Source: Corallococcus praedator (GTDB lineage: Bacteria; Myxococcota; Myxococcia; Myxococcales; Myxococcaceae). Taken from it: a stretch of 42,581 nucleotides of DNA. This document shows positions 548-40,476 of the stretch, one piece after another. The stretch lies in NCBI RefSeq assembly GCF_003612125.1, contig NZ_RAWI01000034.1, positions 1 through 42,581 of the forward strand, given 5' to 3'. The notes beneath the pieces are model-generated. The model worked only from the letters and a program-made list of their open reading frames with translations. It was not told the DNA's origin and made no database searches. A program made the translations under genes and the position numbers. Within the stretch, counting starts at the first letter, position 1, and each line of letters starts with the position of its first letter.

Positions 548-1537
548 ATGAAGACGACGATGAAGTGGGTGATGTCCGCCGCGGTGTTCGCGATGTCGGC
601 CGTGGGCTGCGGTGGCGCGTCGGAGGCCACGGTGGAAGACATGGCGACGGCGAAGCAGGACCTGGGCCCGAACCGGGAGTTCTACGGCTCGGATACCTTG
701 AAGGACGCGATGATCGCCGCGAGCCTCGCCTCCAGCGCCAACCTGAACGTCCAGGGCAAGGGCTCCGGCGTGGGCGAGGGCTGTGTGCGCACCGGTTCCG
801 CCGGTTACTGCACCGCCGGCCAGCAGGCGCTCTCTCCGATGTCGCGTGACTTCAAGGCGCCCTGCCGCACGGGCGAGCGCAGCAACATCATCGCGCTGGA
901 CGCGGTGAACGCGTTCGTGAACACCAGCAACGCGCTGACCGACATCTCCCTGGCCGACCTGCGCAAGCTGTTCTTCGCCACGGACAGCGCGGGCGTGGCC
1001 ATCCCCGGCTCCTGCACCAGCACCCTCACGAAGTACCGCCGCGACGACCTGTCCGGCACCACGGACACCTTCAAGTCCCTGGTGGGCGGCGGCACCTTCT
1101 GCTCCGACGTCACCGTCATCGCCGACGGCGCCCTGCCGGCGGCCTGCGCGGGGGAGACGAGCGCCACGAAGTGCATCGGCAAGCTGACCGCGACCGACGC
1201 AAACGCCATCGGCTACTCCGGTGACTCCGCCGCCCGCACGGGCAACCGGGCGCTGAGCGTGAATGGCATCGCCCCCAGCGTCACCAACGTCCGCAAGTTC
1301 CTGACGGACAAGGCCAACGCCTACCCGCTCTCCCGCGGGCTGTTCCTGAACGAGAGCACCACCAACACGCGCTCCACCAACGAGCGGATCCTCTACGCGT
1401 GGGCCTACAGCGCCGCGAACAAGCAGGCCTTCGAGAACATCCTGGTCAACCAGGGCTTCATCGCCTGCGACACCACGGGCGCCCTGAAGTGCGGCGGCGT
1501 GAACAACGACGGCAAGGGCGCCGGCCTCTGCCAGTAG
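548..1537 (+). CDS. PstS-like periplasmic substrate-binding lipoprotein
   Basis: This 329-residue exported protein resembles the phosphate-binding PstS/PBP-like family, which captures oxyanions outside the inner membrane. ATG 548 was chosen over the longer open frame from 359 because it has AGGAG at 537-541 and begins a signal peptide (MKTTMKWVMSAAVFAMSAVG) ending at Cys21, a plausible lipidation site with a weak lipobox. The mature part starts with a G-S-D-T-L segment, has a GKGSGVGEGC loop and later Y-R-R-D-D-x-S-G-T, as in PstS proteins where Ser/Thr/Arg/Asp side chains hold the anion. Mature cysteines suggest disulfides. No pstC, pstA, pstB or phoU lies nearby, and a strong hairpin follows, so it appears monocistronic. 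It could serve a remote Pst transporter, act as a sensor, or bind something other than phosphate. The family is fairly sure, the ligand is not. Confidence 0.8.
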   Translation: MKTTMKWVMSAAVFAMSAVGCGGASEATVEDMATAKQDLGPNREFYGSDTLKDAMIAASLASSANLNVQGKGSGVGEGCVRTGSAGYCTAGQQALSPMSRDFKAPCRTGERSNIIALDAVNAFVNTSNALTDISLADLRKLFFATDSAGVAIPGSCTSTLTKYRRDDLSGTTDTFKSLVGGGTFCSDVTVIADGALPAACAGETSATKCIGKLTATDANAIGYSGDSAARTGNRALSVNGIAPSVTNVRKFLTDKANAYPLSRGLFLNESTTNTRSTNERILYAWAYSAANKQAFENILVNQGFIACDTTGALKCGGVNNDGKGAGLCQ

Positions 1538-1655: not shown

Positions 1656-2699
1656 ATGCGCTCCATCGTCACGCTGCTCGTCGCATCCACCACCTTCATC
1701 AGCGCGCCCGCGCTCGCCGACTCCACCTCCCAGAATGCTCTCAAGGGAAGCCCGCCCTGGGCCTGCCGCCAACCGGCTGGCACCGTGGGCACCGTGCGGG
1801 AGATCCCGCTCGCCCCGGGCTCGGAGCCCGTGGGCATCACCGTCGGGCCGGACCTCAAGGTCTGGTTCACCCAGACCGGCAGCAACACGATTGGCCGCGC
1901 CACCCGGGACGGGCAGGTGACCCAGTTCGCCCTGCCCACGCCGTATGCCTCTCCCCAGAACATCACCCCGGCCCTGGACGGCAACCTCTGGTTCACCGAA
2001 TTGAGCGTGGACCAGGTGGGGCGCATCACCCCGGCCGGCGTCGTGACGGAGTTCCCGCTCCCGGAGCGGGGTTCGTCCCCGTTTGGCATCACCGCGGGCC
2101 TGGACGGCAACGTGTGGTTCACGGAGGTGACGGGCAACCGCATTGGCCGCATCACCCCGGCGGGCGTGGTGACCGAATTCGCCATTCCCACGCTGGCGTC
2201 CCAGCCCCGGGGCATCGCCCTGGGCGTGGACGGCAACATCTGGTTCACCGAGCTGGCCGGCAACAAGATTGGCGTCATCTCCCCCGCCGACGGCACGCTG
2301 CGGGAGTTCAGCATTCCCACGCCGGACAGCGGCCCCAGCGCCATCACCCCGGGCCTGGACGGCGCCATGTGGTTCACCGAGCAGTTCGGCAACAAGGTGG
2401 GCCGCATCACCCCGGCCGGCGTCGTGACCGAGTACGCCATCCCCACCCCTGACAGCTCACCCGCCGCGCTCTCGGTCGGCGCCGACGGCAACGTCTGGTT
2501 CGTCGAACAGTTCGGCAACAAGCTGGGCCGCATCACCCGCACCGGCGCCATCACCGAGTTCCCCCTCCAGACCCCCGACAGCTTCCCTTCCGGCATCTCC
2601 TTTGGACCCGCTGGATTCTTCTGTCTGGATGGCAATGTCTGGTTTGCCGAGCGCTTCGGTGACCGGCTTGGAAAGCTTCAGGTCGTCACGACGCCGTGA
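1656..2699 (+). CDS. Exported virginiamycin B lyase-like seven-bladed propeller
   Basis: The protein has 347 residues. ATG 1656 begins a clear Sec signal peptide (MRSIVTLLVASTTFISAPALA), so it is exported. The mature protein is seven repeats of about 42 residues, each with a G-[IL]-x-x-G-x-D-G-N-[VI]-W-F-[TV]-E core followed by N-x-[IVL]-G-R-I-T-x-x-G-x-[VI]-T-E-[FY]. This is the Vgb/SMP-30 beta-propeller pattern; the seventh blade has a short Phe/Cys-containing insert. Vgb linearises streptogramin B antibiotics in the cytoplasm using a conserved His and Glu pair. This protein has no histidine anywhere and carries an export signal, so the lyase reaction is unlikely. A binding or structural role, or different hydrolytic chemistry, is more plausible. 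It is probably monocistronic, lying between two hairpins. Confidence 0.85.
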   Translation: MRSIVTLLVASTTFISAPALADSTSQNALKGSPPWACRQPAGTVGTVREIPLAPGSEPVGITVGPDLKVWFTQTGSNTIGRATRDGQVTQFALPTPYASPQNITPALDGNLWFTELSVDQVGRITPAGVVTEFPLPERGSSPFGITAGLDGNVWFTEVTGNRIGRITPAGVVTEFAIPTLASQPRGIALGVDGNIWFTELAGNKIGVISPADGTLREFSIPTPDSGPSAITPGLDGAMWFTEQFGNKVGRITPAGVVTEYAIPTPDSSPAALSVGADGNVWFVEQFGNKLGRITRTGAITEFPLQTPDSFPSGISFGPAGFFCLDGNVWFAERFGDRLGKLQVVTTP

Positions 2700-2837: not shown

Positions 2838-5594
2838 ATGTGGATGACACGGAAGGGGTTTGTGCCCGGCCTGGCCCGGGGTGTCTTGTTATGGGCTGGG
2901 GTGCTCGCGGCGGGCTGTTCCGAGTCACCGCCCCCGCCGCTTCCGGTGCCGCCACCGCCCGTGGCCACGGCCTGTCCGCCCGCGCGTTCGGGCGAGCGCA
3001 TCCCGATGCACGCCGGTGCGCCCGCGGCGACCTTCACGGAGACCTTCGACGGGCTGAAGGCCCGCGTGGATGCCCAGTGCGCCCAGTGTCATGCGGCGCC
3101 CAACGCCGTGGGGGGCTTCCAGTACGGCGCCGGCCTGGAAGGGCTGAAGCACGACGGCGCGAGGATGGCCCTGAAGGCCTCCCAGGGAGAGATGCCTCCG
3201 CTGGCCACGCCCGAACAGACGAAGAAGGCGGTGGAGCTGGCGTGCGCGATCGACGCCTGGCTGGCGCAGGGGTCTCCGACGGGGAGCTTCAGCGGCAGTT
3301 GTGACGACGCGGTCACGGGTGGTGTCTCCGTGGAGCCCGGGGTGGCGGCGGCGATGACCGACCTGGGCCACTGCGTCCCGGACGTCACGAAGCCGGAGCT
3401 GTTCGGGAGCGACCCGGACAAGGACGCGGCCTTCGCGGCGCTCACGAAGCTGCCGCCCAGGCTGTCCGACACGGACACGGACATCATGACGTTCGACGTG
3501 GAGAAGCTGGCGGCGCGCGGCACCTTCGCCTTCGCGCCCACCTATCCGCTCTTCTCCGACCACGCGAAGAAGCTGCGCCTGGTGCACGTGCCGGCCGGTC
3601 AGTCCATCCGGTACGACGCGCAAACGAAGGCGTTCCACATCCCTCCCAACACGCGCTTCTACAAGACGTTCTTCAAGTCGGTGGCCGGCAAGGATGGCTA
3701 CCTGCGCTACCGGAAGATTGAAACGCGCCTCATCGTCGTGCGCGAGCCCTGGAACCAGTCGCTCTTCGGCACCTACCTGTGGAACGCGGAGGGCACGGTC
3801 GCGGAGCTGCATGACCTGCGCTACCGGAACGGGGAGCCGTTCTCCGACCGCGTCCTCGTCTACACGGAGCACGAGGGCACCGGGAAGACGCGCAACTACG
3901 CCATCCCCGGCGCGCACCGGTGCGTCAATTGTCACACGGGCTCCGAGGGCCAGAACTTCGTGCTCGGCTTCACACCGCTGCAGCTCAACCGCCGCGCTCC
4001 GGGCGAGGCGGGCGTGGATGCGAACGCGAACATCCAGGAGGACGAACTCAGCCAACTGGAGCGGCTGGTCCGCGCGGGCGTCATCACCGGCTTGCCGGCT
4101 TCCGGCACGCGGCAGGAGTTGAGGGACCTGCTCCCGAAGCTGGAGGGGTACGCGCAGCAGGCCGGCCCGGAGGGCCAGCCCGTCCCCGGAAAGGAAGCCC
4201 TGGAGCTGCAGGGCTACTTCGTTGGCAACTGCGCGCAGTGCCACAACCCCAACGGGTTCGCCGTGCAGAGCAACCCCGCCATCGCTTCGCTGGATTTCTC
4301 CGCGGGAGGCATCCTCTTCGGCTGGAACCCCTGTGGCGTGAAGGAGAGCAACGGCCAGCGCAGCTATGCCGTCTGTGATGATGGAGCCCAGCCCGACTTC
4401 TTCCTGAAGGACCTGTTGCTGCGCACCCCGGGCAGCACGCTCTATCAGCGCGTCGCTCGGGACACGGATGCCCGCATCATCCACATGCCCGCCAACGTGC
4501 CCGGCAACGACTGCCGCGCCGCGCTGCTGATGGCGCGCTACCTGGGCGCGCTGGAGTGGAAGGGCGAGGAGGCGCTGTCCGCGCAGGACAAGGCGGCGAA
4601 GAAGCAGGAGCGCCTGCGCCAGGCAGAGCAGGCCGTGGCCGCCTCGTGTTCGAACCCCACCGATGTGCGGTGGATCACCGAGGACTTCACGGACAAGGTG
4701 CCCTACGAGCCGCGCAACTCGCGCTGGAAGGACGCCATCGGGAAGCCTCCCTATGAGCACCTGACCCGCTATCCCATCACCGCCCAGCACGAACAGCTCG
4801 CCCGTCAGTCCTTCCCCACGAACTGGTGGGTGGGCAAGCCGGGCTGCTCGTTCCCAAACCAGCCCGCTCCGGAAACCATCGAACCGTGGATGCTGGATAC
4901 GCTGGGCAGGCCCCGCTACAGCTGGGGCCGGCTCTACAGCTCCACGCCGGGCGCCACCGCCTTCCAGGGCATCTGCGCCAACTGCCACGGGCGCGCGGGC
5001 GACGGCCAGAGTGGCGCGGCCAAGACGCTGGTGGCCCTCAACGGCGCACGGGTGGCCAACCTCACCGCGGGCCTCTTCGGCGCGACGAACGGCACGCCCA
5101 ACCTCGTGCCCTTCGAACAGGAGTACGGCGCGCACGGTGGCGCCCGCTACCTGCTGTGGATGGCGAGCGGCGGCACCACGGTCCAGTTCACCGAGCAGTT
5201 CATGCAGGCCTGGGTGAAGTACGGCGAGGTGGACATCGACTTCTCCGCCGACACCCGGGACTGGGCGTCGTGGGGCGCGAACATGCTCGGCGCGGCGCGC
5301 GGTGCCTGCGACCTCATCCGGCTGGGCAAGTTCGGCACGGCCACGCCCCCCAGCGCCAACATCACGGCCATCGGCGGAACGCGGATGTGGACGGAGGTCT
5401 GCGCCCTGGACAATCCGCTGACAGAAGGCATCCGCGAGGGCACGGACTCGGCGGCGCTCCAGGAGTGGCTGCGGCACGCGGAGTTCAACGTGGGCGTGAT
5501 GGCCTACTTCTTCCTCCGGGATGAGCTGTCGAAGAACCCGCCGGGATGGATCTACCCGCTGCGCAACGAGTGCGAGAAGCGCGTCGCTCCCTGA
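2838..5594 (+). CDS. Four-haem c-type cytochrome lipoprotein (HNE_0200/TIGR03806-like)
   Basis: This is a 918-residue envelope protein. The start at ATG 2838 (ATG 2844 is also possible) gives a signal peptide ending in L-A-A-G-C27, a good lipobox. It has four CXXCH haem c sites: CAQCH 81-85, CVNCH 362-366, CAQCH 465-469 and CANCH 713-717. The middle region, with LFSDHAKKLRLVHVPAG and a later KTFF segment, resembles the HNE_0200 conserved family often found with secreted redox or cell-surface proteins. The C-terminal part after residue 690 looks like a second cytochrome domain, so the protein may be a fusion. Its role is probably electron transfer at the outer membrane or periplasm; the partner is unknown. 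The DUF4397-type lipoprotein gene follows after 47 nt and is probably co-transcribed. Confidence 0.85.
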   Translation: MWMTRKGFVPGLARGVLLWAGVLAAGCSESPPPPLPVPPPPVATACPPARSGERIPMHAGAPAATFTETFDGLKARVDAQCAQCHAAPNAVGGFQYGAGLEGLKHDGARMALKASQGEMPPLATPEQTKKAVELACAIDAWLAQGSPTGSFSGSCDDAVTGGVSVEPGVAAAMTDLGHCVPDVTKPELFGSDPDKDAAFAALTKLPPRLSDTDTDIMTFDVEKLAARGTFAFAPTYPLFSDHAKKLRLVHVPAGQSIRYDAQTKAFHIPPNTRFYKTFFKSVAGKDGYLRYRKIETRLIVVREPWNQSLFGTYLWNAEGTVAELHDLRYRNGEPFSDRVLVYTEHEGTGKTRNYAIPGAHRCVNCHTGSEGQNFVLGFTPLQLNRRAPGEAGVDANANIQEDELSQLERLVRAGVITGLPASGTRQELRDLLPKLEGYAQQAGPEGQPVPGKEALELQGYFVGNCAQCHNPNGFAVQSNPAIASLDFSAGGILFGWNPCGVKESNGQRSYAVCDDGAQPDFFLKDLLLRTPGSTLYQRVARDTDARIIHMPANVPGNDCRAALLMARYLGALEWKGEEALSAQDKAAKKQERLRQAEQAVAASCSNPTDVRWITEDFTDKVPYEPRNSRWKDAIGKPPYEHLTRYPITAQHEQLARQSFPTNWWVGKPGCSFPNQPAPETIEPWMLDTLGRPRYSWGRLYSSTPGATAFQGICANCHGRAGDGQSGAAKTLVALNGARVANLTAGLFGATNGTPNLVPFEQEYGAHGGARYLLWMASGGTTVQFTEQFMQAWVKYGEVDIDFSADTRDWASWGANMLGAARGACDLIRLGKFGTATPPSANITAIGGTRMWTEVCALDNPLTEGIREGTDSAALQEWLRHAEFNVGVMAYFFLRDELSKNPPGWIYPLRNECEKRVAP

Positions 5595-5641
5595 AACCCA
5601 TTCATGACCCTGCAACACCCATTCCCGAAAGGGGAAGTCGC

Positions 5642-7420
5642 GTGAAGAGACACAGCTTGAGGGCACTCCTGTGGTGTGTGGGATTGAGTGTGGTCCCGCT
5701 GCTGGCCGGATGTGGTTCCACCGAGTGCCGGGATGCGTTCGATTGCCGGGACCAGGGCACGGCCCCCACGGGCCAGGTGTGGGCGTGCCAGGAGGAGAAG
5801 TGCGTCGCCGTCACTCCGACGCCGACCGCGGAGGTGGACGCGGGCACGGGCACCGATGCCGGGACGGACGCGGGCACCGATGCCGGGACGGACGCGGGTG
5901 TGGACGCGGGCACCGATGCCGGAACGGACGCGGGCACCGATGCAGGGATGGACGCGGGCCCCATCGCGTATGTCCGCTTCGTCAACGCGCTCTACGAGGG
6001 CAACTTCGACGATGCCAACACCCCATGGGACGCGGCCCGTTACCGGATGGATGTCCAGGCGGGGACGCCCGCGCAATCCCTGTTCACGGGGGTGGAGTCC
6101 GGCGAGCCGGGGGTGAAGGACTTCGTCCCCGTCACGCCGGGCGCGGACCTCCAGTTCTCCCTGCGCAAGGCAGGGGCGTCCGCCACGGAGCCCGCGCTGG
6201 CGACGACCGGGAAGGTCTCACTGGCCGAAGGCGAACGGCTGACGCTGCTGGCGGTGGGCGGGATGGCGAGCGTGGGGACCAGCGAGGTCAACGCGCCGAA
6301 GCTCCTGGCGCTGAAGGACGACGCGTTCGGCGCCGTGCCGCCCGACGAGGTCCGCGTGCGCCACGTGACCGCGGACCAGGTGATCGCTGACTTCTTCCCC
6401 CGGCTCCTCAAGACGGACTCGGGCGAGGAGCTGCCGGAGGTCACGCCCTTCACCGCGGATCCGGAGGTGAAGGGGCGCGCCATCCCGGCGACGACGGGCC
6501 GGCTGCTGGTGCGAGGCAGCATCGACGCCCCGGAGCCCTCGCAGAGCGCGGAGGTGGGCTACACCCTGCCGTCCGGTGCGCTGGTGAAGGGTCAGGGCTA
6601 CTACGTCCTGTCCTCGGGGGATGACCGCCGTGCCATGAACGACGCGGGCGCTTCCTCACTGCTGCTGATTCCCGCGGGGAAGGGCGGCGCCGTGCGCCTC
6701 AAGCGGGATCCGCTGCTCTATTTCTTCCATGCGCTCATCGACGGTGGGGCGCTGAAGGTGAGCAGCCAGGGCGCGCCCATCGCGACGGGCCTGGGCTACG
6801 GGAATGATCCGGCGGTCGGTGATGTGGCAGCGGGCACGGCGGGACATGCGCTGACGTTCTCCCTGGCGTCGGGCACGACCGTGCTGGACGCCTTCCAGAC
6901 GGGCCCCCTGGAGGCGGGCCGCCGCTACCTGGTGGTCGTGAGCGGCAGGTCGGGACAGACGGGCGCCGAGGGGCCCCGGGCCTTCATCGTCCCGGACACC
7001 TTCGCGCCGGACGCGCAGGACGCGCGCGTGCGGTTCATCAATGCCTGTTCATCTTCTCCCGCGCAGGGCGTGGGGCTGGGCTTCTTCGATGTCGCCGGTG
7101 ACAACTCCAGTCGCGGCCCCACGTACACGAGCGTCATCCCGGACGTGACGTATGGCGCGGTGGGCGGCTCCGTCGAAGGGGAGGGCTTCCCCGCGCCGAT
7201 GGGGACGGACGCGACGGGCTCCTACGCCTGGTACGCCATCCGAGGGCAGGAGGGTGGTGCGTCCACGGAGCGCTCCGTGAAGGGGACCCGCATCACCCGG
7301 CCCCACCTCTTCGTGCTGATGGGGGACTGGACGACGGGCCCGAAGTTCCGCGCGCTCAACCTGCGCAACAACAGTTGGACCGCCCTGACGCCCCGGGGCG
7401 ACGAAGCCTTCAAGCCGTAG
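5642..7420 (+). CDS. DUF4397-like surface lipoprotein with Thr-Asp-Ala-Gly repeat linker
   Basis: This 592-residue lipoprotein starts at GTG 5642, 4 nt after GGGGAAG at 5631-5637. The signal peptide ends in L-L-A-G-C24. A short Cys-containing segment (E-C-R-D-A-F-D-C) follows, as in many myxobacterial surface lipoproteins. Next come about 40 residues of (T-D-A-G)n/(V-D-A-G)n linker, then a large beta-rich region with at least two repeats that begin A-[YR]-V-R-F-[VI]-N-A, typical of DUF4397 domains. Function is unknown; it probably sits on the outer membrane and binds or presents something. It follows the four-haem lipoprotein by 47 nt, so the two may form a surface complex. Longer in-frame starts overlap the upstream gene and lack a signal peptide. 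Confidence 0.8.
   Translation: MKRHSLRALLWCVGLSVVPLLAGCGSTECRDAFDCRDQGTAPTGQVWACQEEKCVAVTPTPTAEVDAGTGTDAGTDAGTDAGTDAGVDAGTDAGTDAGTDAGMDAGPIAYVRFVNALYEGNFDDANTPWDAARYRMDVQAGTPAQSLFTGVESGEPGVKDFVPVTPGADLQFSLRKAGASATEPALATTGKVSLAEGERLTLLAVGGMASVGTSEVNAPKLLALKDDAFGAVPPDEVRVRHVTADQVIADFFPRLLKTDSGEELPEVTPFTADPEVKGRAIPATTGRLLVRGSIDAPEPSQSAEVGYTLPSGALVKGQGYYVLSSGDDRRAMNDAGASSLLLIPAGKGGAVRLKRDPLLYFFHALIDGGALKVSSQGAPIATGLGYGNDPAVGDVAAGTAGHALTFSLASGTTVLDAFQTGPLEAGRRYLVVVSGRSGQTGAEGPRAFIVPDTFAPDAQDARVRFINACSSSPAQGVGLGFFDVAGDNSSRGPTYTSVIPDVTYGAVGGSVEGEGFPAPMGTDATGSYAWYAIRGQEGGASTERSVKGTRITRPHLFVLMGDWTTGPKFRALNLRNNSWTALTPRGDEAFKP
5835..5959 (+). repeat. 24-bp coding tandem repeat (TDAGTDAG linker)
   Basis: Imperfect tandem copies of a 24-bp unit reading GCGGGCACCGATGCCGGGAC plus GGAC encode Thr-Asp-Ala-Gly pairs. 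One copy is shortened to a 12-bp GVDAG-type unit. All changes keep the reading frame. It is a low-complexity spacer in the lipoprotein, not a CRISPR array, because there are no spacers. Confidence 0.85.
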
Positions 7421-25161: not shown

Positions 25162-27090
<1,929 letters not shown>

Positions 27091-27165
27091 GGGGGCCGGC
27101 CCCGCATCTGGAGTGGGGTCGCCTTGCGTATGGGAGGGGAGTCCTCGTTAATCCTCTCCTCTTCC

Positions 27166-28476
27166 ATGGCTTCCGAACCCGACGACAAGCTTCCGCCCCA
27201 GGGGCGGTTCAACCGCCTGCGCAAGCTGGCGGGCCTCTCCATGCACGTGGGCTCGGAGGTGCTCAAGACGGGCGCCAAACACCTCGCGGGCTCTAGCCCG
27301 TCTGAGCTGCTCAGCCTGGGCACCGCGGAGAAGCTGGTGGCCACGCTGGGGGAGATGAAGGGCGCGGCCATGAAGCTGGGCCAGGCGCTCTCCATGGACC
27401 AGGACCTGCTCACGCCCGAAGTGCGGCAGATGCTGGCGAAGCTGCAGAACCAGGCGCCCGCCATGTCCTACGCGCAGGTGTCGCGCGTGGTGAAGGAGGA
27501 GCTGGGCGCGCCGCCGGAGGAGCTGTTCCGCGAGTTCTCCCGTGAGGCGCTGGCCGCCGCGTCGCTGGGGCAGGTGCACAAGGCGGTGCTGCACGACGGC
27601 CGCGCGGTGGCGGTGAAGGTGCAGTACCCGGGCATCGACGCGTCCATGGTCCACGACATGGACAACCTGGGCCTGGTCGTGAAGACGGTGTCCAAGACGT
27701 CGCGGATGATGGACGGCACCGCGTACTTCCAGGAGTTCCGCGACGAACTCATGCTGGAGCTGGACTACCGCCGCGAGGCGATGCTCGCCGCGGGCTTCGC
27801 CCAGAGCGTGGCGAAGCTGCCGGACCTGTACGTGCCGCAGGTCATCGTGGACCGGAGCGCCCGGCGCGTCCTCACGCTGGAGTTCCTGGAAGGCCAGACG
27901 CTCAAGGACTGGGTGCCGACGTCCCCGGACAACGCCGCGCGCTTCCGCGTCGCGCGCCAGCTCATCCGCGCCACCTACGGGCCCTTCCTGGACGCGGGGG
28001 AGATCCACGCGGATCCGCACCCGGGCAACTTCATGGTGATGCCGGACGGGCGCATGGGCCTCTTGGACTTCGGCTCCATCAAGCGCTTCAGCCCGGGCTT
28101 CGTCGCCTCCAACCGCCGCATGTTCCACCAGGCGCTGCGACTGGAGACGCTGGACGTCCTGGCCCTGTGCCGGGAGGTCGGCTTCACGGTGGAGTTGCCG
28201 GAGCCGGAGGCGGAGGCGCTCCTGCGCGAGGTGCTGCACATCGCCGGGCGGCCCATGCGCGCGTCGCCGTATGACTACGGCACCTGCGACATCAACCGCG
28301 ACCTGCGCAACCACTTCACGCGCAACGCCGCGCGCTTCCTGCGCATCAAGCCGCCCCCGGAGGCGATGATGTTCTTTCGCGCCACCGGCGGGCTCGCGCA
28401 GAACCTGCGCCTGCTGGGCGCGCACGGCGACTTCCGGCAGGTGTTCCTGGAGGTCGGCGCCCTCGTGGAGGCGTGA
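27166..28476 (+). CDS. ABC1/AarF/UbiB family atypical kinase
   Basis: This protein of about 436 residues has the UbiB/ABC1 atypical kinase fold: K-x-G-Q motif K-L-G-Q at 70-73, the Ala-rich loop A-A-A-S-L-G-Q-V-H, Lys151 (A-V-K-V-Q-Y-P-G), H-A-D-P-H-P-G-N and L-D-F-G metal motif. Members support quinone biosynthesis or lipid homeostasis and act on membranes. The ubi genes are not nearby. The start is uncertain: ATG 27166 lies too far from the GGGAGGGGAG at 27132-27141, while TTG 27124 or ATG 27130 begin before that purine-rich stretch. The gene follows the Ser/Thr kinase by 75 nt and may be read with it, ending at a hairpin that spans its stop. Confidence 0.87.
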   Translation: MASEPDDKLPPQGRFNRLRKLAGLSMHVGSEVLKTGAKHLAGSSPSELLSLGTAEKLVATLGEMKGAAMKLGQALSMDQDLLTPEVRQMLAKLQNQAPAMSYAQVSRVVKEELGAPPEELFREFSREALAAASLGQVHKAVLHDGRAVAVKVQYPGIDASMVHDMDNLGLVVKTVSKTSRMMDGTAYFQEFRDELMLELDYRREAMLAAGFAQSVAKLPDLYVPQVIVDRSARRVLTLEFLEGQTLKDWVPTSPDNAARFRVARQLIRATYGPFLDAGEIHADPHPGNFMVMPDGRMGLLDFGSIKRFSPGFVASNRRMFHQALRLETLDVLALCREVGFTVELPEPEAEALLREVLHIAGRPMRASPYDYGTCDINRDLRNHFTRNAARFLRIKPPPEAMMFFRATGGLAQNLRLLGAHGDFRQVFLEVGALVEA

Positions 28477-33750: not shown

Positions 33751-34170
33751 CTACCCCTCAACAGGCGAGGGGTTCCGGCCTGGCGTGGCCGGCCGGGGCT
33801 TCAGGCGCATCGCATTGAGCTTCTGGGCCAGGTCGGCGCCCTGCACGCTCTTGGAGATGTAGCCGTCCGCGCCGGAGGCGATGGCCAGCGAGCGCAGCTT
33901 CGCCTCATCTGACGCGGAGTAGAGGATGAAGCGGGTGCCGGGGGGCGCGTACTGGCGCGCCAGCCCCACGACCTTGTCGCCCTTGAGGGCGGGGAAGTTC
34001 ACGTCGATGAGCACGAAGTCCGGCTCGGACGCGCGCACGATGTTGGACACACCCAACGCGGACGTATGGGTCTGCACTTCGAACCCGTACGCGCTCAGCG
34101 AGCGCTGCACGAGGTCGAGCAGGTCCGGGTCGTCGTCCACCACCAGGACGCGCGGTTTTGGTTCAGCCAT
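33751..34170 (-). CDS. Single-domain response regulator of the FIST/hybrid-kinase operon
   Basis: This 139-residue receiver starts at ATG 34170. Landmarks: V-V-D-D-D, the phospho-acceptor in V-L-I-D-V-N-F-P-A-L, Ser in L-Y-S-A-S-D-E-A-K-L and Lys in Y-I-S-K-S-V-Q-G. Like its paralogue at 28495-28899, the Lys is followed by Ser, not Pro. Its start overlaps the end of the hybrid-kinase gene by 8 nt, so they are translationally coupled and very likely functional partners. The kinase or its internal receivers should phosphorylate it. It has no output domain. A hairpin overlaps its stop codon. Confidence 0.9.
   Translation of the reverse strand: MAEPKPRVLVVDDDPDLLDLVQRSLSAYGFEVQTHTSALGVSNIVRASEPDFVLIDVNFPALKGDKVVGLARQYAPPGTRFILYSASDEAKLRSLAIASGADGYISKSVQGADLAQKLNAMRLKPRPATPGRNPSPVEG
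33753..33773. terminator. Hairpin at the end of the FIST-kinase operon
   Basis: ACCCCTC (33753-33759) pairs perfectly with GAGGGGT (33767-33773) around a 7-nt loop and overlaps the stop of the receiver gene at 33751-33753. No U-tract follows on the minus strand. Confidence 0.45.
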
Positions 34171-37129
34171 GGCTTCTCCCTAGGTACTGACGAATCGTCT
34201 CGATCAACTGATCGCGATCCAGGGGCTTGGTCAGGTAGGCCGTGCAGCCGGCCGCCTGGGCCTTGTCCTGGTATTCGCGCCCCGCGTGGGCGGTGACGGC
34301 GATGACGGGCACATTCTGCCCATCCGGCAACGCCCGGAGCCTGCGGGTGACTTCCCAGCCGTCGAGTCTCGGCAGGGACAAATCCATGAGGATGAGGTCC
34401 GGCACGTCGGCTTTCGCGCGCTCCAAGCCCTGCTCGCCGTCCTCCGCCTCGATGAGGTCATACAGCCCGCCCAGGTAGCGGCGGACGATGTCGCGGTTCT
34501 GCTCGCTGTCCTCCACGTACAGCACGCGGGGCAGCTTGCCGGCGCTCGCGGCCCGCTGGGACATGAGCAGGCCCTTGGCCTGGGAGATGACGTCCTCCAG
34601 GGCCGTGCCGCCCTTGCGCACGAAGCCGGCGAAGCCGTCGCGCAGGAGCGTCTCTTCCTCGCCGGTGAGCGTCTTGCCGGTGAGCACCACCACCGGCACG
34701 GACAGCTTCTCCGCGCGCAGCCGGCGCAGCACCTCGAAGCCGTCCAGGTTCGGCATCATCAGGTCCAGCACCACCAGCGACGGCGGGGACACGCGCGCCT
34801 TGAGCAGCGCGTCCTCGCCGTTGCGCGCCTCGTTGGTGGAGAAGCCCGCGCGGCGCAGGTTGCGGCTGACCAGCTCGCGCGTGGCCGCGTCGTCGTCCAC
34901 CACCAGCACGTCACCCGTGGCGGCCGTGGCGCCCGCGGAGGCGAGGCTCTTCTGCACTACCTCCACCAGCCGCTCCGGCTCCACCGGCTTCACCAGGTAC
35001 TCGCACGCGCCCAGGCTGAAGCCGCGCGCGCGCTGCTCCTCCACGGACACGAGGATGACCGGGATGCCCGCCAGGCCCGGCTCGCTCTTGAGCTGGCTCA
35101 GCACCGACCAGCCGTCCATCCGGGGCAGGTGGATGTCCAGCAGGATGGCCTGCGGCTTGAGCTCCCGCGCGAGCTTCAGCGCGGCGATGCCGTCATCCGC
35201 CGTCACCACCTTGAAGCCCGCGGGCTCCAGCTGTCCGGTGACGAGCTGCTGGATGAGCGGATCATCATCCACCACCAGCACCGTGCTGCCCGGCCGCGCC
35301 ATGGGCGCGAGCTTCTGCGCCACGTCCTGGATGGGGACCAGCCGCTCCGTCGCATGCGGGCTGTTGGCGCCCACCGTGGTCGCCAGCACGTCCGGCAGCC
35401 GCACGGTGAAGGTGGAGCCCCGGCCCAGCGTGCTCGTCACATCCACCGTGCCGCCCAGCACGCGCGTCAGTTCGCGCACGATGGCGAGCCCCAGCCCCGT
35501 GCCGCCCACCTTGCGCGTGGTGGAGCCGTCCACCTGGCGGAACTTCTCGAAGATGAAGGGCAGCTGGTCCGCGGGGATGCCCACGCCGGTGTCCTCCACC
35601 GTCATCAGCATCTCCCCCGAACCCGCGGGCACCACCGTGAGCGCGACCTCGCCCGTGTCGGTGAACTTGGCCGCGTTGCTCAGGAGGTTGAGCATGATCT
35701 GCCGCAGCTTGAGCGCGTCCGTGCGCACCTCGTGCGCCTCCGGATCCACGTGCACCGTGAGGGCGACGTCCTTGCCCTTCAGGTACTCCTTCACCGTGGC
35801 CATGCACTCGTCGGCCAGCTCCTGCACGTCCACCGGTTCGGTGACGACCTCCACGCGGCCGGCTTCAATCTTGGACAGGTCCAGGATGTCGTTGATGAGC
35901 GCCAGCAGCGTCTTGGCGTTCGTCTTCACCACGTTGAGGTCGCGCCGGCCGTGCGGCGTCAGGCGGTTGCCCTCCTCGCGCATCAACAGGTCGCAGTAGC
36001 CGATGATGCCGTTGAGCGGGGTGCGGATCTCATGGCTGAAGTTCGCCAGGAACTCGCTCTTGAGCCGCACGGCGCCTTCCGCCTCGCGCGCGCGCTCCTC
36101 CTCGTTGCGCTTGGCGACGGAGAGCTCCTGGGCCAGACGGTCCAGGTCCTCGTTCTGCTGACGGATGATCTCCATCTGCAGCGCGCGCTGCTGGTAGCTG
36201 GCCAGCGACCGGGCGGACACCGCGCGCGTCTTCTTGATCTCCTCCAGGCTGGCGGCCAACTGGAGGTTCGCGGCCTCCAGCTCCTCCTTGGAGGCGCGCA
36301 GCATGGCCTCGTTCTGCTTGCGCTCGGTGATGTCGTCGGTGACGCCCATCACGAAGCGCGCGATGCCGTGCTCGTCCAGCAGGGGAATCTTGCGCGTGGC
36401 GAAGATGCGGTCCTCGCCGTCCGCGCGGGCCACCTCCTCGAACGTCTTCATCTTCCGGGTCTCGAGGATCTCCGTGTCGATGGCGACGAACGAGTCCGCC
36501 TGGTCATGCGGGAAGTAGTCGTGGTCCAGCTTCCCCAGCAGCCATTCCTTGGTGACCTTGAAGGCGTCCGCGAACGTCTTGTTGGCCACCACCAGCCGGC
36601 GCGTCTGGGCGTCCTTCACGAACAGCACGAAGGGCAGCGCGTCGATGATGTTGCTCAGCAGGTAGTTGGTCCGCTTCAGCTCCACGCCCGTCGCCTGGTG
36701 CTGGGCGCGCTCGGCGTGCAGGCGCAGCTCGCGCGCGACGACGAAGGGCAGGTGTCCGTAGCGGTCCTCGGTGACGTAGTCGAGCGCCCCCAGCCGCATG
36801 GCGGTGTCCAGCGTGGCCGGGTTCCACGCGGGCGAACTCACCACGAACGAAAGCGACAGCCCGCGCTGCTGCCACGTCGCGTGGACGGCCTCCCAGGACA
36901 GCCCCGGCACTTCCGTGCCCACGAGCACGAGCGCGTAGGGCCGCGCCAGGGCCTGCTCCAGCGCCGCCTGCGAGCACGCCTGCTCCAGCGTGAGCATGGA
37001 GAGGATGTCCTCGCGCTCCAGCGCGTCGCGCATGGCGCGCGTTTCGCGCTCGCTGCCCACCAGGAGCAACGACAAGGTGTACCCCAGCGGTGCTTCCGCG
37101 AGCGCCACGTCGAACGGTTGGTTGGCCAT
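34163..37129 (-). CDS. Hybrid histidine kinase (pseudo-REC, PAS, HisKA, HATPase, three REC)
   Basis: This 988-residue soluble kinase has an N-terminal receiver-like domain (20-140) without the acceptor Asp (A-L-V-L-V-G-T-E-V-P-G). Next come a PAS domain (155-270) ending T-D-D-I-T-E-R-K, a coiled coil (275-350), HisKA with His366 (S-H-E-I-R-T-P), and HATPase with N-L-L-S-N-A-A-K-F and T-G-L-G-L-A-I. Three receivers follow, with acceptors Asp665, Asp789 and Asp916. The multiple receivers suggest several internal relay steps or several output choices. The start lies 4 nt after the FIST gene stop. The likely stimulus reaches it through the FIST protein; the output is the adjacent receiver. No membrane segment is seen. 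Confidence 0.93.
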   Translation of the reverse strand: MANQPFDVALAEAPLGYTLSLLLVGSERETRAMRDALEREDILSMLTLEQACSQAALEQALARPYALVLVGTEVPGLSWEAVHATWQQRGLSLSFVVSSPAWNPATLDTAMRLGALDYVTEDRYGHLPFVVARELRLHAERAQHQATGVELKRTNYLLSNIIDALPFVLFVKDAQTRRLVVANKTFADAFKVTKEWLLGKLDHDYFPHDQADSFVAIDTEILETRKMKTFEEVARADGEDRIFATRKIPLLDEHGIARFVMGVTDDITERKQNEAMLRASKEELEAANLQLAASLEEIKKTRAVSARSLASYQQRALQMEIIRQQNEDLDRLAQELSVAKRNEEERAREAEGAVRLKSEFLANFSHEIRTPLNGIIGYCDLLMREEGNRLTPHGRRDLNVVKTNAKTLLALINDILDLSKIEAGRVEVVTEPVDVQELADECMATVKEYLKGKDVALTVHVDPEAHEVRTDALKLRQIMLNLLSNAAKFTDTGEVALTVVPAGSGEMLMTVEDTGVGIPADQLPFIFEKFRQVDGSTTRKVGGTGLGLAIVRELTRVLGGTVDVTSTLGRGSTFTVRLPDVLATTVGANSPHATERLVPIQDVAQKLAPMARPGSTVLVVDDDPLIQQLVTGQLEPAGFKVVTADDGIAALKLARELKPQAILLDIHLPRMDGWSVLSQLKSEPGLAGIPVILVSVEEQRARGFSLGACEYLVKPVEPERLVEVVQKSLASAGATAATGDVLVVDDDAATRELVSRNLRRAGFSTNEARNGEDALLKARVSPPSLVVLDLMMPNLDGFEVLRRLRAEKLSVPVVVLTGKTLTGEEETLLRDGFAGFVRKGGTALEDVISQAKGLLMSQRAASAGKLPRVLYVEDSEQNRDIVRRYLGGLYDLIEAEDGEQGLERAKADVPDLILMDLSLPRLDGWEVTRRLRALPDGQNVPVIAVTAHAGREYQDKAQAAGCTAYLTKPLDRDQLIETIRQYLGRSHG

Positions 37130-37133
37130 GTGT

Positions 37134-38294
37134 CTAGTTGGAACCGAACGCCAGCACGGTCAGCGTGGTGTTGATGTGGAAGCCTGAGTAGATCTCGAAC
37201 TGCACGTTCATCCCAGCAGCGGACGGTGCGAGCTTCAACGCTTCGGAGAGCTGGGGCACCACACCGGTCGCGTTCGCGTACCACATGCGTCCGCTGCAGT
37301 GGAACAGGAGGGCGGCCTGGGGGTTCTGGACCCGCCTGGGCAGCTCCTCGGCGAAGAAGTCGCGCGTCATACCCGCCAGGTCGCCTGCCTTCATCAAATC
37401 CAGCTCGCTTCCCTCCTCCAGCAGGTTGGCGAACAGGATGGAGCCGTCCTCCAGGGGCCGCCACGCGGCGCGGATGAAGTACTCGCGGCCCACCTTCAGC
37501 GCGGTGGGGCGCACGGCGAAGCCCTTGGGCTTGCCGAACTCCAGCTCGTCCGGGGTGACGCCCAGGATTTCGGCGTAGCGCTTCGCGGCGGGCTGCCCGT
37601 CGATTTCGAGCGCGCGCGTGTGCGTCTCATCCACCTTGGTGATGGTGAGCCGCTGGCCGGTGGGCACGTACCAGTGCGAGCGCAGCGCGGCCCAGGGCGC
37701 GTTCGTCTTGAAGAGGGCCACGAGCACGCCGTCGCCGGCCACTTCGCCATCCACGTGGATGAGCGCGGACTGGCGCGAGGGGTCCGGCTCCGAGTCGCTG
37801 GCGCCGCCGCCCACCAGCACCAGCGTCTGGTTCTTCTCCAGGATGCCCAGCAGCAGCTCTTCTTTTTTGTAGCGGAAGCCGTCGTCAATCACGAGGCCCA
37901 CGTACCGGCGCGCGTCCAGGTCCTGCTGGCGCACGCCCAGCTCCTCGCACGCGCGCTTGATGGCCTGGGCGCCCGCGGCGATGGCGTCGCCGGTGAGGCC
38001 GCTGCCCAGGCCCAGGCCCACCTCGAAGTCGCCGGACAGCGCGCCCAGCACCACGCTGTTGGTGTGGATGCCGTTGTTGTCCAGCTCCCCGGCCGTGGTG
38101 GCGCCCACGAGCCGGGTGTCCTTGGGCAGCCGCTCCCGCACCGCGCGGTTGAGCGCGCGCTGGTCGCGCTGGCGGGAGGCGAACAGCGTGACCAGCTTCG
38201 GCGGGGGGCCGTGAAGCTGTCGTAGGAGGTCCTCCGCGGCGGCGACTGGATCCGTGAGGGTGGAGCGAGCCGTCTGCATCTTCACGCTGGCCAT
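37134..38294 (-). CDS. FIST domain signal-transduction protein
   Basis: This 386-residue protein has FIST N and FIST C domains, which are thought to sense small ligands such as amino acids in signalling proteins. Family features: V-T-L-F-A-S-R-Q-R-D, G-A-T-T-A-G-E, the internal G-L-V-I-D-D-G and G-G-G-A-S-D, and the C-terminal L-F-H-C-S-G-R. ATG 38294 has GGAAGG upstream; a longer frame lacks a better start. The gene ends 4 nt before the hybrid kinase and lies 34 nt after the multihaem lipoprotein. FIST domains are usually fused to kinases or cyclases; here the sensor is a separate protein encoded with the kinase. The ligand is unknown. Confidence 0.9.
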   Translation of the reverse strand: MASVKMQTARSTLTDPVAAAEDLLRQLHGPPPKLVTLFASRQRDQRALNRAVRERLPKDTRLVGATTAGELDNNGIHTNSVVLGALSGDFEVGLGLGSGLTGDAIAAGAQAIKRACEELGVRQQDLDARRYVGLVIDDGFRYKKEELLLGILEKNQTLVLVGGGASDSEPDPSRQSALIHVDGEVAGDGVLVALFKTNAPWAALRSHWYVPTGQRLTITKVDETHTRALEIDGQPAAKRYAEILGVTPDELEFGKPKGFAVRPTALKVGREYFIRAAWRPLEDGSILFANLLEEGSELDLMKAGDLAGMTRDFFAEELPRRVQNPQAALLFHCSGRMWYANATGVVPQLSEALKLAPSAAGMNVQFEIYSGFHINTTLTVLAFGSN

Positions 38295-38328
38295 GGAGGA
38301 CCTTCCCTTGCGAACCGGGCTTGGGCGG

Positions 38329-40209
38329 CTAGAGGCCGCTGCCCGGGTGTGTCTTGTGACAACTGCCGGTGCACTGCTGGAACGATTCGCGACCGCCACC
38401 GACATACATGCTTTCGATGGGGCCGAAGGACTTCACGTGGCTGTCCGGATAGCTCTTGTGGCACGACAGGCAGGCGGCCTTGCTGGTGCGCTGCGTGGTC
38501 TCCTTGTCCAGGTGGCAGGAGGAGCACTTCTCCAGGGGCGCGTCGAAGCGGTTGGAGCGCGAGTGGATGAAGTGCGTGCGCACGAAGATGGGGCCTTCCA
38601 GTTCGAAGCCCAGCGGAGCATGGCACGACGCGCACGCGGCGCGGTTGTCGTTTCCGTGCAGCACGTTGCTCAGCTCGCCGCCCTGGCTGTGGCAGCTGTT
38701 GCAGGGGCCGGTGGTCAGCCTGGCCTCGGTGTGGGTCTTGGTACCCACCTGGATTTCGATGGTGCGGGAGGCGGGCAGGTCCTCGCCCAGGAACACGCGG
38801 CGGCTCTTGGCCGTGACCAGGTACGTGCCGGGCTTCGCGTCCGTGGGCAGGTGGTAGGTCCAGGTGTCGCTCACGGGCGCGTCCCAGCGGCCGTCATTGG
38901 GGAAGAAGGCGCCGCCGAAGAGCTTGTTGGCGGGCGGGAACGTCATGAACTGCGCGTAGACGCCGTCGCGCGCCGGGGTGGCGATGGTCTGCACGTCCTG
39001 GGAGTCGTCGAGGAACGCCTCCAGGTCGACGATGGTGCGGATGGGCTTGATGTCCTGCGCGGGCCCGATGAGCTGCGTCATCATCATCCGTTCCCGGTGC
39101 TTGCGGCGGTAGTACGTGGCGGTCGGGTCGAAGAAGGCCTGATAGTACTGGATCCCGGCGGGGTGACCGGGAGCACCCGGCGGTGCGACCTCATTGTAGG
39201 TTGGTAGGCTGCCGGCGGGGTGCAGCCGCTTGCCCTTCCCGTCCTTCAGGGTCATCTGGAAGGTGACATCCGACCCGGGGGCATACGTGCCGTCCTTGCG
39301 GGGCGCCGTCAGCGCCTTGATGTCGATGGCGAACCCGTAGTCGTACGCGGGCGACGCCACCTGCGTGACGGGGATGTAGTAGGGCGCGAACGGCCGCAGG
39401 CTCCAGCGCAGGCGCAGGCCCTTCGTCTTGGACGTGAAGGTGAGGGTCTGCTTCTTCGCGTGCTCGTACGCGTTGCGCACCTCCACCAGCGCCTCCTCCT
39501 CGAAGGCCTTCGCGCCCGAGCAGTCCGTGAGGCTGCGACAGTCGCGCGTCCACTGAATGGCGCGCAGACGGCGGATGAAGAAGTCGTCGCGCTCCGTGCG
39601 GCGCGTCTCCTCGCTGCCGATGTTCAGCAGCACCGGCGGACCGGTGAGGATGCCGCGCGCGTCCACGGGCTCCACGGTGAAGAGGCTGGTCGCCTTCATC
39701 CAGGCCGCGTCGCGGTAGAAGCGGCGGCGGGTGAAGGTCCCGTCCGGGTTGGACAGGCCGACGAACTCCTCGTCCGCCTGGCGCACACCGCCCCACCCGA
39801 TGGCCAGGAAGTCGCTGTTCTGGCGCAGGCCGTTCACGCCCTCGTCCACGGTCGCGTTGATGGAGGCGCGCAGGTCGATCTGGTTCACCCAGAACGTCTG
39901 CCCGGCCTTCACCTTCAGGGGCACGCCCTCGCCGTTGTCCACCTCCAGCGCCAGCGCCACGGGGGCCGACCCGCCGTTGCCGCCGCCCCTGCGGGCGTCG
40001 TCGTCCGTCACCGCCTGGGACTGGGACGCGAGCTCCAGCGGGGCGACCTGACCGTCCAGGGAGGTGGAGTCCTCCGAACCTGAAGCGTCCTGTCCGCCGC
40101 ACGCCAGCGCCAGGCCCGCCATCGCTGCCAGCAAGCTCGCGCGGCCCGCGGAACCCACGCGGGAAGAAGTACGAGTACACCGCGCCCTGAAAGCTCCAAC
40201 TGCGACCAT
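38329..40209 (-). CDS. Multihaem c-type cytochrome lipoprotein with a CX3CH site
   Basis: This 626-residue envelope lipoprotein starts at ATG 40209 (GAGGAG upstream) and has a signal peptide ending L-A-L-A-C37. Residues 60-490 are beta-rich and without haem motifs. The last 125 residues have CNSCH 503-507, CASCH 526-530, CSSCH 562-566, CLSCH 580-584 and a final C613-T-G-S-C-H618 with three residues between the cysteines (CX3CH) instead of two. The haem cluster resembles the multihaem part of outer-surface electron-transfer proteins, but I cannot identify the N-terminal family. It probably acts at the outer membrane. It lies 34 nt before the FIST gene and could be co-transcribed with the FIST/kinase operon. 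Confidence 0.85.
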   Translation of the reverse strand: MVAVGAFRARCTRTSSRVGSAGRASLLAAMAGLALACGGQDASGSEDSTSLDGQVAPLELASQSQAVTDDDARRGGGNGGSAPVALALEVDNGEGVPLKVKAGQTFWVNQIDLRASINATVDEGVNGLRQNSDFLAIGWGGVRQADEEFVGLSNPDGTFTRRRFYRDAAWMKATSLFTVEPVDARGILTGPPVLLNIGSEETRRTERDDFFIRRLRAIQWTRDCRSLTDCSGAKAFEEEALVEVRNAYEHAKKQTLTFTSKTKGLRLRWSLRPFAPYYIPVTQVASPAYDYGFAIDIKALTAPRKDGTYAPGSDVTFQMTLKDGKGKRLHPAGSLPTYNEVAPPGAPGHPAGIQYYQAFFDPTATYYRRKHRERMMMTQLIGPAQDIKPIRTIVDLEAFLDDSQDVQTIATPARDGVYAQFMTFPPANKLFGGAFFPNDGRWDAPVSDTWTYHLPTDAKPGTYLVTAKSRRVFLGEDLPASRTIEIQVGTKTHTEARLTTGPCNSCHSQGGELSNVLHGNDNRAACASCHAPLGFELEGPIFVRTHFIHSRSNRFDAPLEKCSSCHLDKETTQRTSKAACLSCHKSYPDSHVKSFGPIESMYVGGGRESFQQCTGSCHKTHPGSGL

Positions 40210-40476
40210 GGGGGACTCCTCGAAGGCTTGATTGCGGACGCTTACAGTCACAGCGTCGCGTTCTGGGGACCCGGTAGCCCTTCCGTCGGGGGGACGGTGG
40301 CGGATGAGGTCCGACTCAAAACCGGCTTTTACCGGGAGCGAGTACTTTTAGCCGTACGAAGAATATCCACAACGAACAGATCGATTCAACTTCTGAGAAT
40401 ATTTCCGCTCAGAGGAGAACCCGATTGTTTGGGACTGGATGGGAGGGGTGCCTGGGGCACAACCCACCCGGACGGG
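40210..40476. other. AT-rich intergenic region between kinase and multihaem gene
   Basis: The gap holds no ORF of interest. It has a patch of AT-rich DNA (40320-40420) in a GC-rich genome and two AGAATAT copies, at 40360-40366 and 40396-40402. The candidate promoter of the multihaem gene lies here. No clear terminator of the kinase gene was found. Confidence 0.5.
40360..40389 (-). promoter_or_regulatory. Candidate sigma-70-like promoter for the multihaem gene
   Basis: On the minus strand TTGAAT (40389-40384) and TATTCT (40365-40360) are separated by 18 nt. Each matches the consensus at four of six positions. It lies about 150 nt before the multihaem lipoprotein start and could drive a multi-gene transcript ending at the FIST-kinase-receiver hairpin. 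Confidence 0.4.

Follow-up and report, generated by a model that had tools for sequence, protein, structure and literature searches.

Streptogramin B lyases open streptogramin B in a Mg2+-dependent reaction. Those of the staphylococcal Vgb type are presumably cytoplasmic, leaderless proteins, and we take their active site to consist of Y18, H228, E268, H270 and E284, in the numbering and with the roles assumed throughout this work. The letters at these five positions agree with the solved Vgb sequence. The staphylococcal VgbA and VgbB structures (2z2n, 2z2o, 2z2p and 2qc5) share a seven-bladed fold with the protein described here, at 43-45% identity and an rmsd of 1.3-1.5 A. However, our protein differs from them in its predicted export, in an N-terminal extension and a blade-7 insertion with one invariant Cys each, and in retaining 0/5 of the site residues. 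VgbC from Paenibacillus sp. LC231 resembles it as a Vgb homolog encoded by an environmental bacterium, and the passages available from that study report that purified VgbC inactivates linopristin (PMC5155152). Therefore, an environmental setting alone is no argument against lyase activity. CylK is also a Vgb-like propeller with replaced Vgb site positions, which carry hydrophobic residues in that enzyme; unlike our protein, it is fused to a Ca2+-binding domain and catalyzes alkylation at the domain interface, according to the excerpts of its description (PMC8916777).

The fold and the Pfam family are thus already known, and Vgb-like proteins are widespread. The listings and passages covered by our literature search contained no account of the exported clade, of its gene cassette or of a residue-based split of the Vgb family. 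Searches combining PstS, multiheme cytochrome and outer membrane returned nothing, as did a search for 'COG4257'.

The propeller gene and its predicted product

The window is the whole stretch of DNA analyzed here, 42,581 nucleotides of Corallococcus praedator contig NZ_RAWI01000034.1, from a genome of 10.5 Mb. The features of the propeller gene are as follows.

1656..2699, + strand: gene for a predicted exported seven-bladed Vgb-like propeller, 347 aa, free of His (PF24684 327.6 bits; AF2 model)
1656..1718, + strand: Sec-type leader, residues 1-21, ending in A-L-A, judged by eye
1764..1766, + strand: Cys37, in the extension that precedes blade 1, invariant in 19/19 orthologs
2622..2624, + strand: Cys323, in a short blade-7 insertion relative to Vgb, invariant in 19/19 orthologs

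The first-pass annotation had given the coordinates, length and complete lack of His of this protein, all of which proved exact on re-checking. It had also described seven W-F-T-E-type blades, and we located their tryptophans at W70, W112, W154, W196, W239, W281 and W329; the motif reads exactly WFTE in four of the seven blades and WFTQ, WFVE and WFAE in the others. From the sequence, we favored the ATG at 1656 as the start codon over an upstream GTG at 1608, which would add two His, because the closest ortholog (L008, 87% identical) starts at the matching ATG and has no in-frame ATG, GTG or TTG upstream. The dN/dS ratio, taken from computed dN and dS, was 0.13-0.49 in 11 ortholog pairs, which shows a real gene under purifying selection. 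Long antisense open reading frames lie opposite the propeller (1634-2635, - strand) and opposite the cytochrome gene described below (2925-5666, - strand); GC-rich codon usage most likely accounts for them.

By eye, the leader MRSIVTLLVASTTFISAPALA terminates in A-L-A and lacks a lipobox, and a leader end of the form [AVG]-x-A was matched by pattern in 19/19 orthologs. These observations agree with the signal peptide proposed at first pass and make export of the propeller likely. As an argument against lyase activity, the signal peptide is no more than supporting evidence. It is reasonable to suppose that Cys37 and Cys323 pair as a putative disulfide that closes the propeller. In a wider alignment of 21 rows, neither cysteine lies in a column that is invariant or nearly so.

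The predicted AF2 model has a mean pLDDT of 88.9, with residues 1-30 below 50, and a Foldseek search with it placed the S. aureus and S. cohnii lyases at the top. The overlay on staphylococcal Vgb that had been suggested as a check was run with this model and returned the Vgb fold: VIA-align against S. aureus Vgb (2z2o) gave Z 47.3 and an rmsd of 1.5 A over 295 residues, and the first non-Vgb rows in the list stood at Z 34.7 and lower. The match to Pfam PF24684 (Vgb_lyase), 327.6 bits against a curated cut-off of 50, denotes membership of a sequence family, not function. Against the NCBIfam VgbB and VgbA models (NF000096 and NF000022), the protein scored 292 and 281.5 bits and did not reach the cut-offs of 600; a distant true lyase would probably also miss 600 bits, because these are strict 'exception' models. 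SMP-30/gluconolactonase (PF08450) matched with 38.4 bits against a cut-off of 26.3, with its best stretch confined to residues 121-178. The beta subunit of hydrazine synthase (5c2v_B), considered as an earlier example of a propeller next to cytochromes, was set aside, as its Z of 32.8 was no better than that of unrelated WD40 proteins.

Active-site positions

Alignment to Vgb placed the following residues at the five positions.

1830..1832, + strand: Val59 at the Vgb Tyr18 position
2463..2465, + strand: Ala270 at the Vgb His228 position
2583..2585, + strand: Phe310 at the Vgb Glu268 position
2589..2591, + strand: Ser312 at the Vgb His270 position
2652..2654, + strand: Arg333 at the Vgb Glu284 position, Arg in 17/19 orthologs

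The window protein thus has 0/5 lyase residues, and none of the five was found in any of the 19 orthologs, the window protein included. Across these 19 sequences, the Y18 column holds L, V, T, S, A or R, the H228 column V, N, A, S or L, the E268 column R, Q, F, L or V, the H270 column A or S, and the E284 column R, S or F. Arg occupies the E284 position in 17/19 and the E268 position in 9/19 orthologs; therefore, the acids of the site are lost and often charge-reversed. A lyase site hidden in a rotated blade register was also considered and rejected, as the window protein has no His and a register-free motif search agrees. The first-pass annotation had held that antibiotic inactivation is very unlikely and that a 'virginiamycin B lyase' label would be misleading. 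The replacement of all five positions in 19/19 orthologs argues for the former, and a protein that scores 327.6 bits against PF24684 yet has 0/5 site residues bears out the latter.

The same annotation had reasoned from the missing His. Their absence stands, but the total count is a weak reason, and the five-position test decides. As a criterion for lyases, the His count was rejected: no His occurs in 25 of the 96 distinct related cores that measure at least 250 aa. Among the propeller orthologs, the number of His ranges from 0 to 6, only the window protein and the ortholog closest to it having none, and the five-residue site is equally absent from those with up to six.

Lyase-type and predicted exported propellers across the family

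As a control, we aligned 114 open reading frames to Vgb. All five lyase residues were present in 11, two in three, one in 15 and none in 85, and no frame had three or four (0/114). These 114 rows represent 107 distinct cores. They come from the 79 loci closest to the window protein (of 383 relatives, the best 80 were used) and from hits in the order; the sample is therefore not an unbiased survey of PF24684, and 38 of its rows have at least one unread position. Nine of the 11 five-of-five frames are myxobacterial, and the remaining two are from Shimazuella and Saccharibacillus. A register-free motif search of 120 frames recovered the same 11 and one frame antisense to a lyase gene, which we took as chance. 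In a second set of 19 frames, there were 13 motif matches, of which 10 fell on lyase genes (two being partial) and three lay antisense to one. Inspection of 14 further myxobacterial regions, which cover only some of the remaining matches, yielded eight full-length five-of-five frames, of which two repeat loci already counted, as well as two partial lyase frames with the last four residues.

The five-of-five myxobacterial homologs (L106-L112, L114, L116-L121 and L125) share the Pfam-type propeller and the bacterial order with the window protein. By eye, the printed stretches upstream of the full-length myxobacterial lyases contain no hydrophobic leader. These leaderless proteins keep Y-H-E-H-E and, unlike the window protein, those included in a quick tree lie on its lyase branch. 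The tree comprised 107 rows including two references, left out identical cores and cores below about 240 Vgb positions, and was supported by SH-aLRT only. It grouped the 19 exported orthologs on a branch of their own (SH-aLRT 100) and 19 lyase-motif rows, two of them the reference enzymes, on a separate branch (SH-aLRT 90), with a single change of the lyase state. Of the 19 genomes that carry the exported propeller intact, at least five (G096, G097, G098, G101 and G102) also encode a complete leaderless five-of-five lyase.

Two further kinds of Vgb-like sequence were encountered. L122 (G104) and L123 (G057) belong to another Vgb-like type; their N-terminus resembles a leader, and the readable positions hold non-lyase residues. 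Large open reading frames (about 740-1000 aa), arranged in runs and rich in matches to Vgb-like propellers, occur at G069:C1:1210571-1217352, in a Corallococcus relative, and at G096:C102:320259-327078, in a Myxococcus relative.

The gene cassette

The propeller gene is the second of four genes, and the other three are listed here.

548..1537, + strand: gene 1, PstS-like protein with lipobox AVGC and the motif R-x-D-x-S-G-T (TIGR02136 49.6 bits, below cut-off)
2838..5594, + strand: gene 3, cytochrome c with four CxxCH and lipobox AAGC (partial SO2930-family match, below cut-off)
5642..7420, + strand: gene 4, DUF4397 protein with lipobox LAGC and a TDAG-repeat linker (Pfam domain match)

The order PstS-like, propeller, tetraheme cytochrome, DUF4397 recurs in all 18 intact loci besides the window. 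The PstS-like, cytochrome and DUF4397 genes co-occur in 30 of 96 family genomes, and close matches to the first two (E <1e-50 for the PstS-like gene and E 1e-100 for the cytochrome) fall in the same 30; weaker PstS-type matches occur in 74 of the 96. Of these 30 cassettes, 19 have an intact propeller, three a truncated one and eight none; therefore, the other cassette genes do not need it. The propeller is an optional part of a module that is so far known only in this family. In the eight propeller-free cassettes, the PstS-like and cytochrome matches are about 136-216 bp apart. The truncated remnants, L149 (G055), L150 (G111) and L159 (G112), lie between the PstS-like and cytochrome genes.

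A DUF4397 homolog lies downstream of the cytochrome in 30/30 cassettes, the motif R-x-[DE]-x-S-G-T is present in the PstS-like protein in 30/30, and the cytochrome has four CxxCH in 29/30 and five in the remaining one. A crude pattern found a lipobox in 28/30 PstS-like proteins, 23/30 cytochromes and 7/30 DUF4397 proteins, the last probably an undercount, because the scanned stretch begins near the match and misses many N-termini. The PstS-like assignment is weak: the protein matched no Pfam family, its best sequence match among solved structures had an E of 0.002, and its predicted model reached a pLDDT of only 50.6. For the cytochrome, the best solved sequence match was at chance level (E 0.084).

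The gaps beside the propeller gene measure 118 and 138 bp, and a scan for promoters and terminators found nothing above chance. No cytochrome homolog (E 1e-40) was found outside the family in 145 genomes of the class. A cytochrome neighborhood as a general trait of Vgb-like propellers was rejected, since a frame of at least 100 aa with at least two CxxCH was found in 5/72 more distant loci. Recoding of an in-frame TGA in the cytochrome gene, flagged in 11 of the 30 genomes, was rejected as well: no stop precedes residue 915 in 11/11, and where the match extends further (3/11) the TGA aligns with residue 916, the ordinary end of the gene.

Elsewhere in the window, a second cytochrome-like protein with weak cytochrome c3/c7 matches is encoded at 38329-40251 (- strand). 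A hybrid histidine kinase with three receiver-domain stretches (34163-38405, - strand) adjoins a FIST-domain protein, and a Ser/Thr protein kinase with TPR (25162-28473, + strand) adjoins an ABC1-type atypical kinase.

Discussion

Judging from the aligned positions, the window propeller is almost certainly not a streptogramin lyase. We think it on balance probable that it is an exported, disulfide-closed propeller of the Vgb fold that has no Vgb site and serves as a rigid binding or scaffold accessory of an exported cassette module. The protein would fold as a Vgb-type seven-bladed ring, closed by the putative Cys37-Cys323 disulfide, and would work outside the cytoplasm as a rigid binding or scaffold protein. 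There, it may be an accessory to a module of PstS-like, tetraheme cytochrome c and DUF4397 lipoproteins, in which the PstS-like lipoprotein might bind phosphate or another oxyanion and the propeller might partner its neighbors physically or functionally. A functional tie between the propeller and the cassette is probable. If one role has to be named, binding or scaffolding is the best guess, since the Vgb site has gone without a recognizable replacement cluster and the frame of the blades is conserved; we infer that the propeller has no other catalytic activity.

The main rival is an enzyme with a different, unrecognized active site or a specific ligand site, because Q101 and S228 at the mouth of the propeller are well conserved (18/19 and 16/19 orthologs). 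The substrate of such an enzyme would be some other extracellular compound, perhaps a cyclic ester or a sugar. Propellers of the Vgb-like fold type host varied chemistries, as the available portions of the CylK study illustrate (PMC8916777), and several polar residues outside the blade consensus are invariant or nearly so in the orthologs, namely, R84, R162, Q243, Q101 (18/19) and R333 (17/19). However, the mouth residues that follow the blade Pro differ among the orthologs at blades 1, 3, 4 and 6, no His is conserved, and no acidic residue occupies any of the five Vgb positions. We consider a different enzyme unlikely.

It is less probable again that the propeller is a passenger, acquired, unimportant to the cassette and eroding in some lineages. 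Its truncation in 3/30 cassettes and its absence from 8/30 are what such a history would predict, but the dN/dS of 0.13-0.49 in 11 pairs, the fact that the 19 intact copies belong to one clade and occupy a single position, and the two Cys that are invariant in 19/19 orthologs speak against it. A surface adhesin or lectin-like protein that binds prey or polysaccharide, to which export, a repetitive rigid fold and a predatory myxobacterial host would all be suited, seems slightly more improbable still: the 347 residues include no wall anchor, stalk or second domain, and nothing in the analysis favors sugar binding. That the automatic label is right and the propeller, though diverged, still functions as a streptogramin B lyase is scarcely credible despite the 327.6 bits against PF24684 and the 43-45% identity that it shares with Vgb structures along the entire fold, given that the five positions are replaced in 19/19 orthologs (E284 by Arg in 17, E268 by Arg in nine), that the NCBI VgbA and VgbB scores are less than half of the cut-off, and that the PDB title of 2z2p describes an enzyme with the H270A exchange alone as catalytically inactive.

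Resistance calls that rest on the Vgb family name are in print: in the excerpts consulted, streptogramin resistance in soil Thaumarchaeota is inferred from annotation (PMC10064710) and streptogramin lyases (vgb) are counted in Saccharibacteria (PMC8651080). Reading the window propeller as a resistance gene is very probably wrong. The window's own genome contains no second match over the Pfam cut-off for PF24684, and a label-based resistance call there would therefore rest on the propeller alone. In our sample, the five-residue check set the lyase candidates apart from all other frames without intermediates, and it is therefore directly usable in resistome surveys.

The cassette supplies a testable biological context for the exported clade. 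A further possibility, which we put forward tentatively and hold to be doubtful, is that the Vgb-like propellers of the exported clade act as a specialized, non-enzymatic subunit of a three-gene module that is otherwise complete, and that this module, made up of an oxyanion-binding PstS-like lipoprotein, a tetraheme cytochrome and a DUF4397 lipoprotein, is an unrecognized myxobacterial surface redox system. If this were true, the Vgb fold would have been co-opted to serve as a scaffold linking an anion-binding protein with a cytochrome.
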